From NCBI RefSeq assembly GCF_001648555.1, contig NZ_LQXM01000030.1, forward strand, positions 1-64,000: a stretch of 64,000 nucleotides of DNA, written 5' to 3'. Source of the stretch: Rossellomorea aquimaris TF-12. GTDB taxonomy: Bacteria > Bacillota > Bacilli > Bacillales > Bacillaceae_B. Below are positions 23,403 through 63,598 of the stretch, piece by piece (within the stretch, counting starts at the first letter, position 1; every line of letters starts with the position of its first letter). Made by a program: the position numbers and the translations under genes. The notes beneath the pieces are model-generated. The model had not been told where the DNA came from. It saw only the letters and a program-made list of their open reading frames with translations, and did not search any database.

Positions 23403-24389
23403 TTGGATACAGGTACTCACATTGTTATGGGCTTTGCTCTTGGAGGCTTAGCTACATTAGATCCCGTTGTTGCGGAAAGTGCAGCCACCTCTCAAAGTGT
23501 GTTAATAGCCGCAGTTATAGGCTCTCAAATACCAGATATCGACACTGTCTTGAAATTACGCAATAATGCCGTTTATATACGACATCATCGAGGTGCTACA
23601 CATAGCATTCCAGCTGTTGCTTTATGGCCACTTTTAATCATTGCATGTCTTTATCCTTTTTTTCCTGAAGCTAATTTGCTTCATCTATGGATTTGGACAT
23701 TTGTTGCTGTATTCCTGCATGTATTTGTCGACATTTTCAACGCTTATGGAACCCAAGCCATTAGGCCAATCTCGTCGAAATGGGTCGCATTAGGTGTCAT
23801 AAACACGTTCGACCCATATATTTTCGGTATCCATGTTGTCGGATTGATTCTTTGGGGCATTGGGTTACCACCTGGTGAAACCTTTTTAGTTATGTACATT
23901 GTCATTTTTGCTTATTATGTGTTGAGGTTTCAGGTTCAAAAAGCAGTTAAAAACGCTGTAAAAAGAAGAATCCCAGAAGCTGAAAAAATCATCGTATCAC
24001 CGACGATACGTTTCTTCCAATGGAGATTAGCCATAGTAACGAGAGATAAATACTATGTTGCCAGAGCCTTTAGACGTTCGATTACGATTTTCGATGAATT
24101 CAAACGTGTTCCAGTACCGAAACTTCCTGTGATTGAAGCAGCGAAAAAAGATAAAAACTTATCAGCATTTCTATCCTTCTCCCCTGTATATCGTTGGGAA
24201 GTAGATGAATACGACGACCATTTCGAAGTACGCTTTATTGATCTACGGTACAGAAACAACGGACACTATCCATTTGTAGCCCTAGTGCAGCTAGATAAAG
24301 ACCTCTCAGTCGTAAGCTCCTACACAGGCTGGGTCTTTAGTGAAGAAAAACTACGCAAAAAAGTAGACATCGACATATTAATCGATTAA
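23403..24389 (+). CDS. yfhP: YfhP, DUF457 membrane-bound metal-dependent hydrolase
   Basis: A 328-residue membrane protein of the YdjM/DUF457 family: N-terminal DTGTHIVMG and SQIPDIDTVL with RHHRGATHSIPAVALWP carry the conserved His/Asp residues of a PAP2-like, phospholipase C-like metal site; four membrane segments precede a soluble C-terminal half. A TTG start follows GGGAGGAC. Order mutY-yfhP is as in B. subtilis. Substrate unknown. Confidence 0.88.
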   Translation: MDTGTHIVMGFALGGLATLDPVVAESAATSQSVLIAAVIGSQIPDIDTVLKLRNNAVYIRHHRGATHSIPAVALWPLLIIACLYPFFPEANLLHLWIWTFVAVFLHVFVDIFNAYGTQAIRPISSKWVALGVINTFDPYIFGIHVVGLILWGIGLPPGETFLVMYIVIFAYYVLRFQVQKAVKNAVKRRIPEAEKIIVSPTIRFFQWRLAIVTRDKYYVARAFRRSITIFDEFKRVPVPKLPVIEAAKKDKNLSAFLSFSPVYRWEVDEYDDHFEVRFIDLRYRNNGHYPFVALVQLDKDLSVVSSYTGWVFSEEKLRKKVDIDILID

Positions 24390-47713: not shown

Positions 47714-48027
47714 AAAGTCCCCCATAATATATTAGCCAGTAATACAACACCAACCATTTAAAGTTATTTGAATCGTCCTCACTTTAGGGTAATTTTACAC
47801 TAAAAGAGTAATAAATACTATTATTATTTTGAGTTTTTAGATTATTGACTATATTATTACTGATAGGCCGTTGTGAGAACTGCCCTATTCTTTTAGTTTC
47901 TAGCGATAAAGAGTATTAAGGAGGGCAAATTTTAATATTTAACAAAGATTAAGAAAGAATCATGCTAAATTTGCCGTTTTCGCCTAATTTTCATGAGGGA
48001 ATTTCTTGCGGGACAAGATATATTATC
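47714..48027. other. AT-rich gap without a gene
   Basis: Over 300 bp upstream of the YfjL-like gene and before array B. No ribosome binding site plus ORF seen on either strand. It should hold the promoter of the YfjL-like gene, but I cannot point to one. Confidence 0.45.
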
Positions 48028-48111
48028 AACTTTTGAACTTTTATTTTTAACTTTTGAGGATTTATTTTCAACTTTTGAACTTTTATTTTTAACTTTAAAT
48101 ATTGCGTTGGT
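48028..48111 (-). repeat. 21-bp periodic array B (four units, word AACTTTTGA)
   Basis: AACTTTTGA occurs at 48028, 48049 and 48070, and AACTTTAAA at 48091, each step 21 bp. The array lies in the 470-bp gap upstream of the YfjL-like gene. Because 21 bp is seven codons, an open frame across it reads as a seven-residue repeat (SSKVxNK). Just to the right, AACTATCAAA occurs at 48141 and 48181 with a related unit between them. Confidence 0.75.
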
Positions 48112-54345: not shown

Positions 54346-54368
54346 TGTTTCCATAGGGGGAAATGAAA

Positions 54369-55643
54369 ATGAAACGCTTTTCAAAAGAAGAAAGCAGTTG
54401 GGTTTTTTATGATTGGGCAAACTCAGCGTATTCCATTATCATCTCTACTGCTGTCTTTCCTTTATTTTATAAAGCAGCAGCTACAAATGCAGGGATCAGC
54501 GGAGCCAATTCAACTGCTTATTTAGGCTATACCATTGCCATTGCCACCTTTATCCTGGCTATGCTCGGACCCATATTAGGAACCATTGCCGATTACGAAG
54601 GCTATAAGAAGAAATTTTTCACCTTTTTCCTGGCTTTAGGGGTTACCTTTACTGCTATTCTTGCCTTTGTTCCAAGTGATCAATGGTTGCTATTATTAAT
54701 CTTTTATACAGTTGCTGCTATAGGGTCAGCAGGTTCAAACGTCTTCTATGATGCATTTTTAACGGATGTCACAACAGAAGATCGAATGAACAGAGTATCG
54801 TCTCGAGGCTTTGGTTTCGGATATATTGGGAGTACCATACCGTTTATCATCAGCATTGCTATCATCATTATGGCACAAAGTAACATTATCCCGATTACAA
54901 CAACCGTTGCTAGTAAAATTGCATTTTTGATTACTGCCTTATGGTGGGGATTTTTCTCCATTCCCCTGCTCAAAAACGTACATCAGCGCTATTACATTGA
55001 ACGAGAAACCAGTCCTGTCATCAAAAGCTTTAAACGTTTAGGAAAAACAATGAAAGAAATTCGCAAATACCGTGCACTCTTTCTATTCCTTCTTGCTTAC
55101 TTTTTCTACATTGACGGTGTCGGTACAATCATTACCATGTCCACAGCCTACGGGACGGACCTGGGTATCACCTCTACTAACCTATTGATTATCCTTTTTG
55201 TCACTCAGGTTGTAGCTGGCCCGTTTGCCATTTTATACGGAAGACTCGCTGAAAAGTTCACAGGAAAAAAAATGCTTTACGTAGGAATATTCGTTTATAT
55301 TATCGTTTGCATTTACGCTTACTTCTTAAAAACAACCATGGATTTTTGGATCCTGGCTATGCTGGTTGCTTCATCACAAGGAGGCATCCAAGCCTTAAGC
55401 CGTGCTTACTTTGCAAAACTGATACCTAAGCAAAACTCTAACGAATTCTTCGGATTCTACAATATATTCGGAAAATTCGCCTCCATCCTTGGACCACTAC
55501 TCGTAGGAGTCACTGCCCAAATGACAGGCAATTCCAACAGCGGCGTATTCAGTCTAGTCATCCTGTTTATCATCGGATTAGTCATACTAGCCTTCGTACC
55601 CGAACCAAAAGAAAACGAAATTCCAAAACCCACTATCGTATAA
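54369..55643 (+). CDS. UMF1/Atg22-family MFS transporter
   Basis: A 424-residue transporter with 12 spans. The N-terminal SSWVFYDWANSAYSIIISTAVFP is the UMF1 (Vacuole effluxer Atg22-like) signature. Better start at 54369 (AGGGGG 8 nt upstream) than at 54363. Cotranscribed with the phosphodiesterase, so it may import or export a product of that enzyme; not proven. Confidence 0.92.
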   Translation: MKRFSKEESSWVFYDWANSAYSIIISTAVFPLFYKAAATNAGISGANSTAYLGYTIAIATFILAMLGPILGTIADYEGYKKKFFTFFLALGVTFTAILAFVPSDQWLLLLIFYTVAAIGSAGSNVFYDAFLTDVTTEDRMNRVSSRGFGFGYIGSTIPFIISIAIIIMAQSNIIPITTTVASKIAFLITALWWGFFSIPLLKNVHQRYYIERETSPVIKSFKRLGKTMKEIRKYRALFLFLLAYFFYIDGVGTIITMSTAYGTDLGITSTNLLIILFVTQVVAGPFAILYGRLAEKFTGKKMLYVGIFVYIIVCIYAYFLKTTMDFWILAMLVASSQGGIQALSRAYFAKLIPKQNSNEFFGFYNIFGKFASILGPLLVGVTAQMTGNSNSGVFSLVILFIIGLVILAFVPEPKENEIPKPTIV

Positions 55644-55681
55644 CCAAAAGACTGACTGCGAGTACGCAGTCAGTCTTTTGG
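55644..55681 (+). terminator. UMF1 gene terminator
   Basis: CCAAAAGACTGACTGCG-AGTA-CGCAGTCAGTCTTTTGG, a perfect 17-bp stem, no long T run, directly after the stop. Confidence 0.82.
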
Positions 55682-55683
55682 AT

Positions 55684-55700
55684 TGAGGGACGGACCTCAT
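55684..55700 (+). repeat. Solitary arm of the GAGGGACGGACCT family
   Basis: TGAGGGACGGACCTCAT, the left half of the palindrome at 37771, without its partner. Confidence 0.75.
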
Positions 55701-55733
55701 GTATATTGGTTTGGTTCGAGTGTGTGTTCACAA

Positions 55734-55828
55734 TTTCGCACATTTATGGTTGAGTTTCGCACATTCTGCATAGATTTTCGCACATTAACGAGAAGTTTTC
55801 GCACATTCCCCTCCCATTTTCGCACATT
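55734..55828 (+). repeat. 21-bp periodic array C (five units, TTTCGCACATT)
   Basis: TTTCGCACATT occurs identically at 55734, 55755, 55776, 55797 and 55818, always 21 bp apart. The ten bases between words differ from unit to unit. Confidence 0.9.
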
Positions 55829-55882
55829 CTTTCAAACTGTTATTCTATAAGAAGCAGGTAACACAATGCCTTGTTCACAATT

Positions 55883-55975
55883 TGGCTCAATTTTCCCCAA
55901 AAGTGGCCCAATTTTTCACTATTTTGGCCCAATAACAGTGAAAAGTGGCCCAATAAGTAACAATTCCGGCCCAAT
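55883..55975 (+). repeat. 21-bp periodic array D (five units, TGGCCCAAT)
   Basis: TGGCTCAAT (55883), TGGCCCAAT (55904, 55925, 55946) and CGGCCCAAT (55967), again exactly 21 bp apart with unrelated sequence between. Starts 55 bp after array C, not in phase with it. Confidence 0.9.
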
Positions 55976-56008: not shown

Positions 56009-56947
56009 TTACATCTCATGCCTCTTTTTCTTATTCATAAACCAGGATTGTTTTCTTCTTATAATCAATTCCTCTAAAGTACCTGATCCACAGATAACCC
56101 CGACCACGATGAACAGTAGTCCAATCAAGTGATAGTATGAGATGACCTCACCTAATATGACAGCTGCTCCTATCAGAGAGAAGAACGTATTTAAATTTAG
56201 AAAAATAGAGGTTTCAGCTGCTCCAATTTTTCCGATGGAATGGTTGTATACCATATGTCCGACAGCTGTTGCCAGCATAGCAGAGGCAAAGAATAAGATC
56301 CATACCCAGCTTGGTGCATTCCCAAGCTCCTCTAAGCCTGTTGGTTCTTTGAATAAGCTGATAATGAACAACACCATAGATCCAAACAGAAGCATATATC
56401 CTGTTAATAATCTAGGATCTAACGTTTTAGCCGCTTTGCTAATAATGATAAAGCTCATTGCCTGCGAGAAAATAGAGATGAATACAAATAAATCTCCTGT
56501 GTTAAGATCACCTATTCCCTCACCACTTGATAAAACAATGATCGCTACCCCAACACTTCCCGATAGAAACCCCATTATTTTTATAACCGTTGGACGATTC
56601 CTTAGCAAAATAGAAGCGAGCATTGCTGTTAACAGGGGGCCTGTACCCAGAATTAATCCTCCATTTGTTGAAGTGGTTTGAGTTAACCCGACGGATAGGA
56701 AGTAATGATGACTAACTACATTTAGCGAGCCTCCCACCATTATGAACATCCATTCTCTCAGAGATGGTTTACGTACTTTCTTCATAATACCTAATAGGAT
56801 GAACACCGTTATGCTAGCTGTAAATATACGTAAAGAGGTTATCGTGACGGGGTTGAACTCACTTACTAAAATTTTTAAAACAGGTACATTAAATCCCCAA
56901 ATCAACATGATGAACACTAATACAATATAGGTCTGCCATTTTTTCAT
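56009..56947 (-). CDS. EamA/DMT-family transporter
   Basis: A 312-residue protein with ten predicted spans in two EamA repeats (first repeat IMLIWGFNVPVLKILVSEFNP; second from about residue 155). GAGGGC before the ATG. Drug/metabolite transporter superfamily; substrate unknown. Monocistronic, convergent with the UMF1 gene across arrays C and D. Confidence 0.9.
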   Translation of the reverse strand: MKKWQTYIVLVFIMLIWGFNVPVLKILVSEFNPVTITSLRIFTASITVFILLGIMKKVRKPSLREWMFIMVGGSLNVVSHHYFLSVGLTQTTSTNGGLILGTGPLLTAMLASILLRNRPTVIKIMGFLSGSVGVAIIVLSSGEGIGDLNTGDLFVFISIFSQAMSFIIISKAAKTLDPRLLTGYMLLFGSMVLFIISLFKEPTGLEELGNAPSWVWILFFASAMLATAVGHMVYNHSIGKIGAAETSIFLNLNTFFSLIGAAVILGEVISYYHLIGLLFIVVGVICGSGTLEELIIRRKQSWFMNKKKRHEM

Positions 56948-63368: not shown

Positions 63369-63479
63369 CGTAAGTCTCCTTTTTGCTCTTATTATACTCT
63401 TTATAACATTTAGGATTGACACATCCTATTTCATGAATATAAAATGTTGAACTAATATCAAGGAACAATTACATTTTAC

Positions 63480-63548
63480 GCTCGTATAATCTTGGAGATA
63501 GGGTCCATAAGTTTCTACCAAACTACCGTAAATAGTTTGACTACGAGA
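63480..63548 (+). promoter_or_regulatory. Purine riboswitch aptamer, guanine type
   Basis: P1 is CTCGTA/TACGAG (63481-63486 with 63542-63547). Conserved core: TATAAT after P1, GTTTCTACC between P2 and P3, P3 CAAACTA/TAGTTTG with CCGTAAA loop, and GACTAC before P1. The specificity base of the 3' core is C (GACTA; adenine aptamers have GATTA), which indicates guanine/hypoxanthine. L2 is GATAGGG, a variant of the usual GATATGG. Confidence 0.93.
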
Positions 63549-63598
63549 GGGAAAACATGTAGGTTTTTTTGGATACCGTATGATTCCCTCTTCAATGT

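Follow-up and report, generated by a model that had tools for sequence, protein, structure and literature searches.

Two adjacent arrays of short words, each repeated in direct orientation at exact 21-bp steps, lie between convergent genes of Rossellomorea aquimaris TF-12 and belong to a class of arrays that is real and genome-wide. The best explanation, to which we give a probability of about one half, is that these phase-locked direct-repeat arrays are one-face sites for sequence-specific DNA-binding proteins, resembling iterons or the ends of IS21/Tn7-type transposons, and that they have spread as one-ended elements. The arrays were found in the window, the whole 64,000-nucleotide stretch that was analysed (contig NZ_LQXM01000030.1, positions 1 to 64,000), and had been pointed out in an earlier note; the observation reported there was confirmed, and its interpretation was partly supported.

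The window arrays and their neighbours

The features of the locus, together with a further array elsewhere in the window, are as follows.

48021..48099 (no strand assigned): third window array, four units of the word AACTTTTGA at 21-bp steps, with a 42-bp dimer period
54363..55643 (+): MFS-type transporter gene, the upstream neighbour; NCBIfam matches all below curated cut-offs
55644..55681 (+): terminator-like hairpin with a T-rich 3' arm, directly after the MFS-type gene; read from the sequence and absent from the consensus-scan list
55684..55699 (+): TGAGGGACGGACCTCA, a palindromic, REP/RAYT-like repeat copy, separate from the word arrays and the sole consensus-scan entry in the region
55726..55733 (+): leader GTTCACAA of array A, directly before the first word
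55734..55828 (+): array A, five exact copies of TTTCGCACATT starting at 55734, 55755, 55776, 55797 and 55818 (step 21 bp)
55873..55882 (+): leader GTTCACAATT of array B
55883..55975 (+): array B, with TGGCTCAAT at 55883, TGGCCCAAT at 55904, 55925 and 55946, and CGGCCCAAT at 55967 (step 21 bp)
56009..56947 (-): EamA/drug-metabolite-type transporter gene, the convergent neighbour; NCBIfam matches below curated cut-offs

As the earlier note had claimed, array A consists of five unchanged words and array B of five words of which the first and last are altered, all at 21-bp steps and between two convergent genes; the distance between the arrays, given there as 55 bp, measures 54 bases. Ten letters separate consecutive words in array A and twelve in array B, where words 2 to 5 are preceded by AAAG, ATTT, AAAG and ATTC, in that order. 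A scan of the window for four copies at periods of 10-79, with at least seven identical columns and more than two letters, found only arrays A and B. Because of this, and because shuffles of 464 kb of the genome's own sequence gave no arrays in five of five runs against 16 in the real sequence, chance is excluded for the window arrays.

Folding of the window arrays as RNA was no better than that of shuffles on either strand (MFE z-scores, +0.76 and +0.32), and neither of the two Rfam matches within the window falls at the arrays. A purine riboswitch (RF00167) lies at 63462-63563. None of the six reading frames is open across both arrays, with some open over one of them; an origin from coding heptad repeats was rejected on this ground, and the families with a 20-bp step described below cannot hold a reading frame.

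Words, leaders and their spread

The source genome (G000; 4.04 Mb in 30 contigs, with an estimated completeness of 99.92 and contamination of 9.56) contains 28 exact pairs of TTTCGCACATT at 13 loci and 16 pairs of TGGCCCAAT at ten loci. With steps of 20-22 bp allowed, all 44 pairs stand at 21 bp, against no pairs for the reversed-pattern controls of both words. All ten copies of TTTCGCACATT in 464 kb of own sequence are confined to arrays, and an A array is found within about 0.2 kb of seven of the ten B loci, in both relative orientations. Duplicated segments among the A loci (C2/C14 and C13/C15/C17/C29-end) leave nine independent spacer sets, which over 153 pairs match at 2.91 of 10 letters (8 at most), where shuffled letters match at 2.51 (sd, 0.09); the spacers of different A loci are nearly, but not wholly, unrelated. 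The contrast drawn in the earlier note between a kept word and variable spacers is borne out for the words, which are the same, and has to be softened for the spacers, given this likeness, a 41/42-bp two-unit pattern in many arrays and a few identical neighbouring units (G005:C58).

The four A copies of the C13 group each lie downstream of a 5S rRNA 3' end and a hairpin. At the rRNA-flank loci L002, L006, L009 and L034, both B and A arrays follow the 5S rRNA 3' end, in paralogous copies that have gained or lost whole units; Rfam reports 5S rRNA at L002 and L034 only, and no tRNA was found at any of the four. In such copies the words change too (TTTTGC, TTTAGC and TGGTCC). A separate 25/50-bp repeat with GTGCCTGGTAC also occurs in this genome (L108, 6956; L110, 14909).

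Each array carries one word, each genome carries many, and most arrays comprise three to six units at 20/21-bp steps. The consensus units differ from array to array and include TTTCGCACATT, TGGCCCAAT, TATCTGCC, TATCAGCG, CGGCGAA, ATTGCGTCA, ATTGCGT, TATTTTCAAAA, TTTATTTTCAACTTT, AATCGAGCC, TAATCTTGCC and others; even adjacent arrays can differ in word, as in the window and at 24287/24414 of the joined stretch of G007. On one strand, most words have an AT-rich frame round a short GC-bearing core (TTAT-core-TTT), a description to be read against a background that is itself AT-rich. The A and B arrays mostly open with GTTCACAA(TT) immediately 5' of the first word, usually preceded by T to give TGTTCAC. 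At 20 of 22 B loci in three species, at least seven of the ten leader letters are kept, in a count that omits a 23rd locus, L022 (not placed), includes the duplicates L021 and L023, and scores as a miss L222, which has GTTCACAATTT further upstream. The leader GTTCACAATTT occurs six times in 464 kb of own sequence, each time at an A- or B-family array, and is absent at L012, L015 and L037 among the 13 A loci. By analogy, the leader GTTCACAATT of the A and B families looks like a transposon end; a clear leader was not seen in the 20-bp families. A variant (TTTTGCACATT, TGGCACAAT) often stands in first place, and the last unit, too, is common to some A arrays; the members of a family therefore look as if they had diverged from one shared element.

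Individual words have narrow ranges. Among 121 genomes searched, pairs of TTTCGCACATT turned up in the source genome alone, the negatives being 35 congeners and 85 further genomes of the order; three matches in GTDB contigs of other bacteria were rejected as unrelated (two simple duplications and one match inside a 21-bp tandem repeat of whole units). Pairs of TGGCCCAAT occur in three of 36 congeneric genomes (G000, G005 and G007, with 16, 8 and 21 pairs), and all 45 stand at 21 bp with 19-23 bp allowed. Pairs of TATCTGCC occur in six of 299 genomes of the order: 16 in the source genome, 21 in G024, 6 in G157 (of which three belong to a 298-bp repeat), 67 in G152 and one in each of two more, G157 and G152 representing two other genera; the reversed control gave three single matches.

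A word-blind scan, which required six or more identical columns among three copies set a constant step apart, excluded repeats of identical whole units and allowed extension by one base either way, found arrays at period 20/21 both in own sequence, with 16 in 464 kb, and in seven sibling species, with 17 in 1.1 Mb (G012, 5 in 200 kb; G007, 6 in 160 kb; G005, 2 in 40 kb; G025, 1 in 200 kb; G003, 1 in 200 kb; G022, 0 in 187 kb; G023, 2 in 112 kb). Over the eight genomes (1.56 Mb), these 33 arrays compare with 6 at nine other period pairs (five at 24/25 bp and one at 18/19 bp). No arrays arose in 20 runs on shuffled sequence (own, G012, G007 and G005), nor were any found in 313 kb from 20 genomes of other families, represented by contig starts that are in some cases very short. 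Without the whole-unit filter, the own sequence also shows periods of 15, 36, 42, 25 and 50 bp, from long uniform repeats. In intergenic DNA, counts of the lags between repeated 8-mers peak at 20, 21, 40-42 and 60-63 in the source genome and its siblings, and these peaks are absent in other families. Further 21-bp arrays, whose absence from this and related genomes would have spoken against the earlier note, are thus present, with the same words recurring in the genome and other words in its siblings.

A phage or plasmid origin was considered and rejected: scans of viral contigs gave 5 stretches for B pairs, 0 for the leader and 31 for TATCTGCC pairs, and all 36 were isolated pairs that by eye resemble coding DNA or chance occurrences. 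Plasmids gave no match to the window arrays, in a search whose sensitivity is poor for words so short. In another genus, L241 holds at 1451-2048 (G152:C1, about 701100-701700) a near-uniform 20-bp array of 30 units with TATCTGC, which is perhaps a young stage of the word-array process.

Word constraint and a proposed binding model

Two orthologous arrays allow words and spacers to be compared between species. In the B array common to G005 and G007, of which one flank aligns, 37 of 45 word letters are kept against 28 of 48 spacer letters; in the array common to G025 and G003, which has the same step series of 21-20-20-21, the figures are 38 of 40 and 31 of 50. Pooled over the two pairs, words keep 75 of 85 letters and spacers 59 of 98 (Fisher P, 2e-5), a difference that is partly built into the sampling, since detection of arrays by internal likeness favours intact words. 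This agrees with the claim that the word is held while the spacers drift. Two arrays of G023 are missing at the matching sites of G022, inside longer differences that include other repeats. A clean empty site was sought and rejected, since G023 and G022 differ by longer blocks and, at G005:C65:19240, G007 has a 2.9-kb difference; no second end or target duplication was seen. Array turnover is fast, and the constraint on words is real but not absolute.

Spacers also carry a trace of how arrays grow. Among 47 arrays tested, spacers two units apart were more alike than neighbours in 33 of the 45 untied (Wilcoxon P, 0.007). In B arrays, the letter class before the word agrees in 24 of 29 comparisons at lag 2 against 28 of 50 at lag 1 (commoner class, 56 of 72), and a residual spacer consensus remains. 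Units with identical spacers indicate growth by duplication, and duplication of one or two whole units is likely the growth process. The earlier argument, that tandem duplication would copy the whole 21-mer and that here only the word is kept, needs amending: duplications of one or two whole units do occur. Words nevertheless outlast spacers in the orthologues.

Under the binding model, each word would be the recognition site of a candidate sequence-specific DNA-binding protein, which would load cooperatively along one helix face in the manner of iteron initiators and of IS21/Tn7/Mu-class transposases at their ends. Arrays would grow by one- or two-unit duplication, after which the spacers would drift while binding kept the words and their phase. 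The A and B families may have spread as short, one-ended, transposon-end-like elements that settle for the most part 3' of genes, positions at which a nucleoprotein array, once bound, would be least harmful or might insulate neighbouring transcription units. The model draws support from IS21, whose ends in some sibling genomes carry direct repeats at similar steps and whose transposase reads such repeats, as detailed below. Of the three options in the earlier note, a protein-binding array, a nucleoid site and a mobile word-repeat family, the first and the third look jointly true.

Several points count against this model. No binding protein was found among the families searched (IS21, rve, Rep_3 and Nop), the rve loci scanned in other genomes lack 20/21-bp arrays, and neither a second end nor a target duplication was seen with the arrays. 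The measured constraint comes from two orthologous pairs, with the one-flank alignment and the sampling preference already mentioned. Words vary among the rRNA-flank copies, the residual likeness of spacers leaves room for copies that are merely young, and the 20-bp families have no clear leader.

A bolder version, which we put forward tentatively and regard as rather doubtful, is a system of DNA words in many dialects, not previously described, in which each member of a paralogous protein family reads its own word of roughly 10 bp and the family occupies arrays of two-turn pitch that, by extrapolation from 16 in 464 kb, number more than 100 per genome. Words and proteins would co-evolve at such a pace that one species could have a word of its own. 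No description of such arrays was found in the portions of the open-licence literature available to us. Should proteins prove to read the words, the genus would supply a natural set of protein-site dialects that brings its own replicas, each word having many arrays whose spacers drift and whose pitch is known. The recognition code, the cooperativity of loading and co-evolution would then be open to direct measurement, and bacterial dispersed intergenic repeats would gain a class that is phase-locked and not palindromic. Which protein binds is a well-defined question that can be answered.

Known systems and competing readings

Plasmid iterons of the Rep_3 type are direct repeats with a short core, placed on one helix face at a pitch of about 20-22 bp. 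The arrays share the short core, the single face and the pitch and differ from iterons in being chromosomal, in having many words and in lying in a genome without a Rep_3 match; no Rep_3 initiator scored over the cut-off in nine genomes, with none in the source genome and one weak match in G157.

The arrays might instead be dead ends of IS21/Tn7/Mu-class transposons, solo remnants of lost elements without present function, a reading that we consider unlikely. According to a structural study, the IS21 transposase reads direct repeats made of two conserved GC-rich segments with about ten variable letters between them, usually at least two repeats per end (PMC10122671). The arrays are alike in their two-turn direct repeats, about 20-22 bp apart, and in conserved segments with variable letters between, and such ends exist in the siblings, where 5 of 16 IS21 loci (L177, L179, L180, L181 and L199) have ends with four direct repeats at 21/22-bp steps. 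The TGTTCAC leader before 21-bp direct repeats also fits dead ends, as does the presence of arrays in one species and their absence from another whose identity to it at one gene is about 94%. Against them, the arrays mostly have three to six units, step by 20/21 rather than 21/22 bp and show a single end: in the loci inspected there is one leader per array, and only L012 (where A lacks the leader) and L033 have facing A/B pairs, not the two inverted ends of IS21. The IS21 transposase (NF033546) and rve (PF00665) have no matches in G000 and none in the array-rich G012. In the scan, 28 rve loci of other genomes proved free of 20/21-bp arrays, with a short B array lying close to one of them, L208. 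Recently dead copies should moreover have common spacers, which is barely so outside the two duplicated groups. An IS21 element of G003 has the word GAGCCAC, whose similarity to word B was set aside because it is oriented the opposite way with respect to the terminus. The arrays thus resemble iteron and transposon-end arrays in anatomy, yet do not qualify as members of the families tried.

Placement bears on a second alternative, also unlikely, in which the arrays are bound by a host protein, of the nucleoid or the terminator region, and serve to insulate or organise the chromosome. With crude gene calls, 27 of 29 arrays from four genomes could be placed, 10 between convergent genes (in 7 gaps), 15 between tandem and 2 between divergent genes, where weighting by length predicts about 4.5, 16.8 and 5.7; the convergent location claimed for the window is thus favoured, without being exclusive. 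This excess, and the four paralogous copies after a 5S rRNA end and hairpin, would suit a host architecture. A widely used host site is harder to reconcile with TTTCGCACATT pairs in a single genome of 121, with arrays gained and lost between close species, with many words per genome, and with siblings (G025, G003 and G022) that hold 0-1 array per roughly 200 kb. One three-unit 20-bp array (L117, 18034-18082) lies between two genes inside a likely operon; these look like leuC and leuB, names that we assume, and arrays are therefore not always outside transcription units. Arrays are scattered singly, and no common gene was found beside those inspected.

Neutral minisatellites, made by slippage and with word conservation reflecting recency only, seem improbable. 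They would account for neighbouring units with identical spacers, 42-bp dimers, the near-uniform array of 30 units in G152 and the residual likeness of spacers, but not for many loci with the same word and nearly unrelated spacers, the strong preference for the 20/21 step, or words that outlast spacers in orthologues. Arrays of RNA guides like TIGR arrays, with words as repeats and spacers as guides, are very improbable: in TIGR arrays, repeats of 8-12 nt alternate with spacers of 9 nt, or up to 12 (PMC12045711), a layout that the short repeats, roughly 10-nt spacers and weak alternation of letters adjoining the word in some arrays recall, whereas the arrays here are scattered singly without a common adjacent gene among those inspected, B spacers retain a residual consensus, and Nop (PF01798) has no match in seven of seven genomes, with a model that may miss Tas.

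REP/RAYT, bcr1 and MITE repeats are likewise present in many copies, intergenic and lineage-specific, and differ in that the arrays are not palindromic and consist of phased direct words. No array lies within 1.5 kb of 25 Y1_Tnp loci in nine genomes, and an identity with REP/RAYT was rejected, several Y1_Tnp genes being flanked by a different repeat or none. The GGGACGGACC/GGTCCGTCCC repeats, noted at 55684-55699 of the window and at L267, L269, L270, L272, L274 and L288 and numbering 53 in 464 kb of own sequence, surround a RAYT-like Y1_Tnp gene in the source genome and several congeners, and this REP/RAYT-type system sometimes adjoins word arrays.
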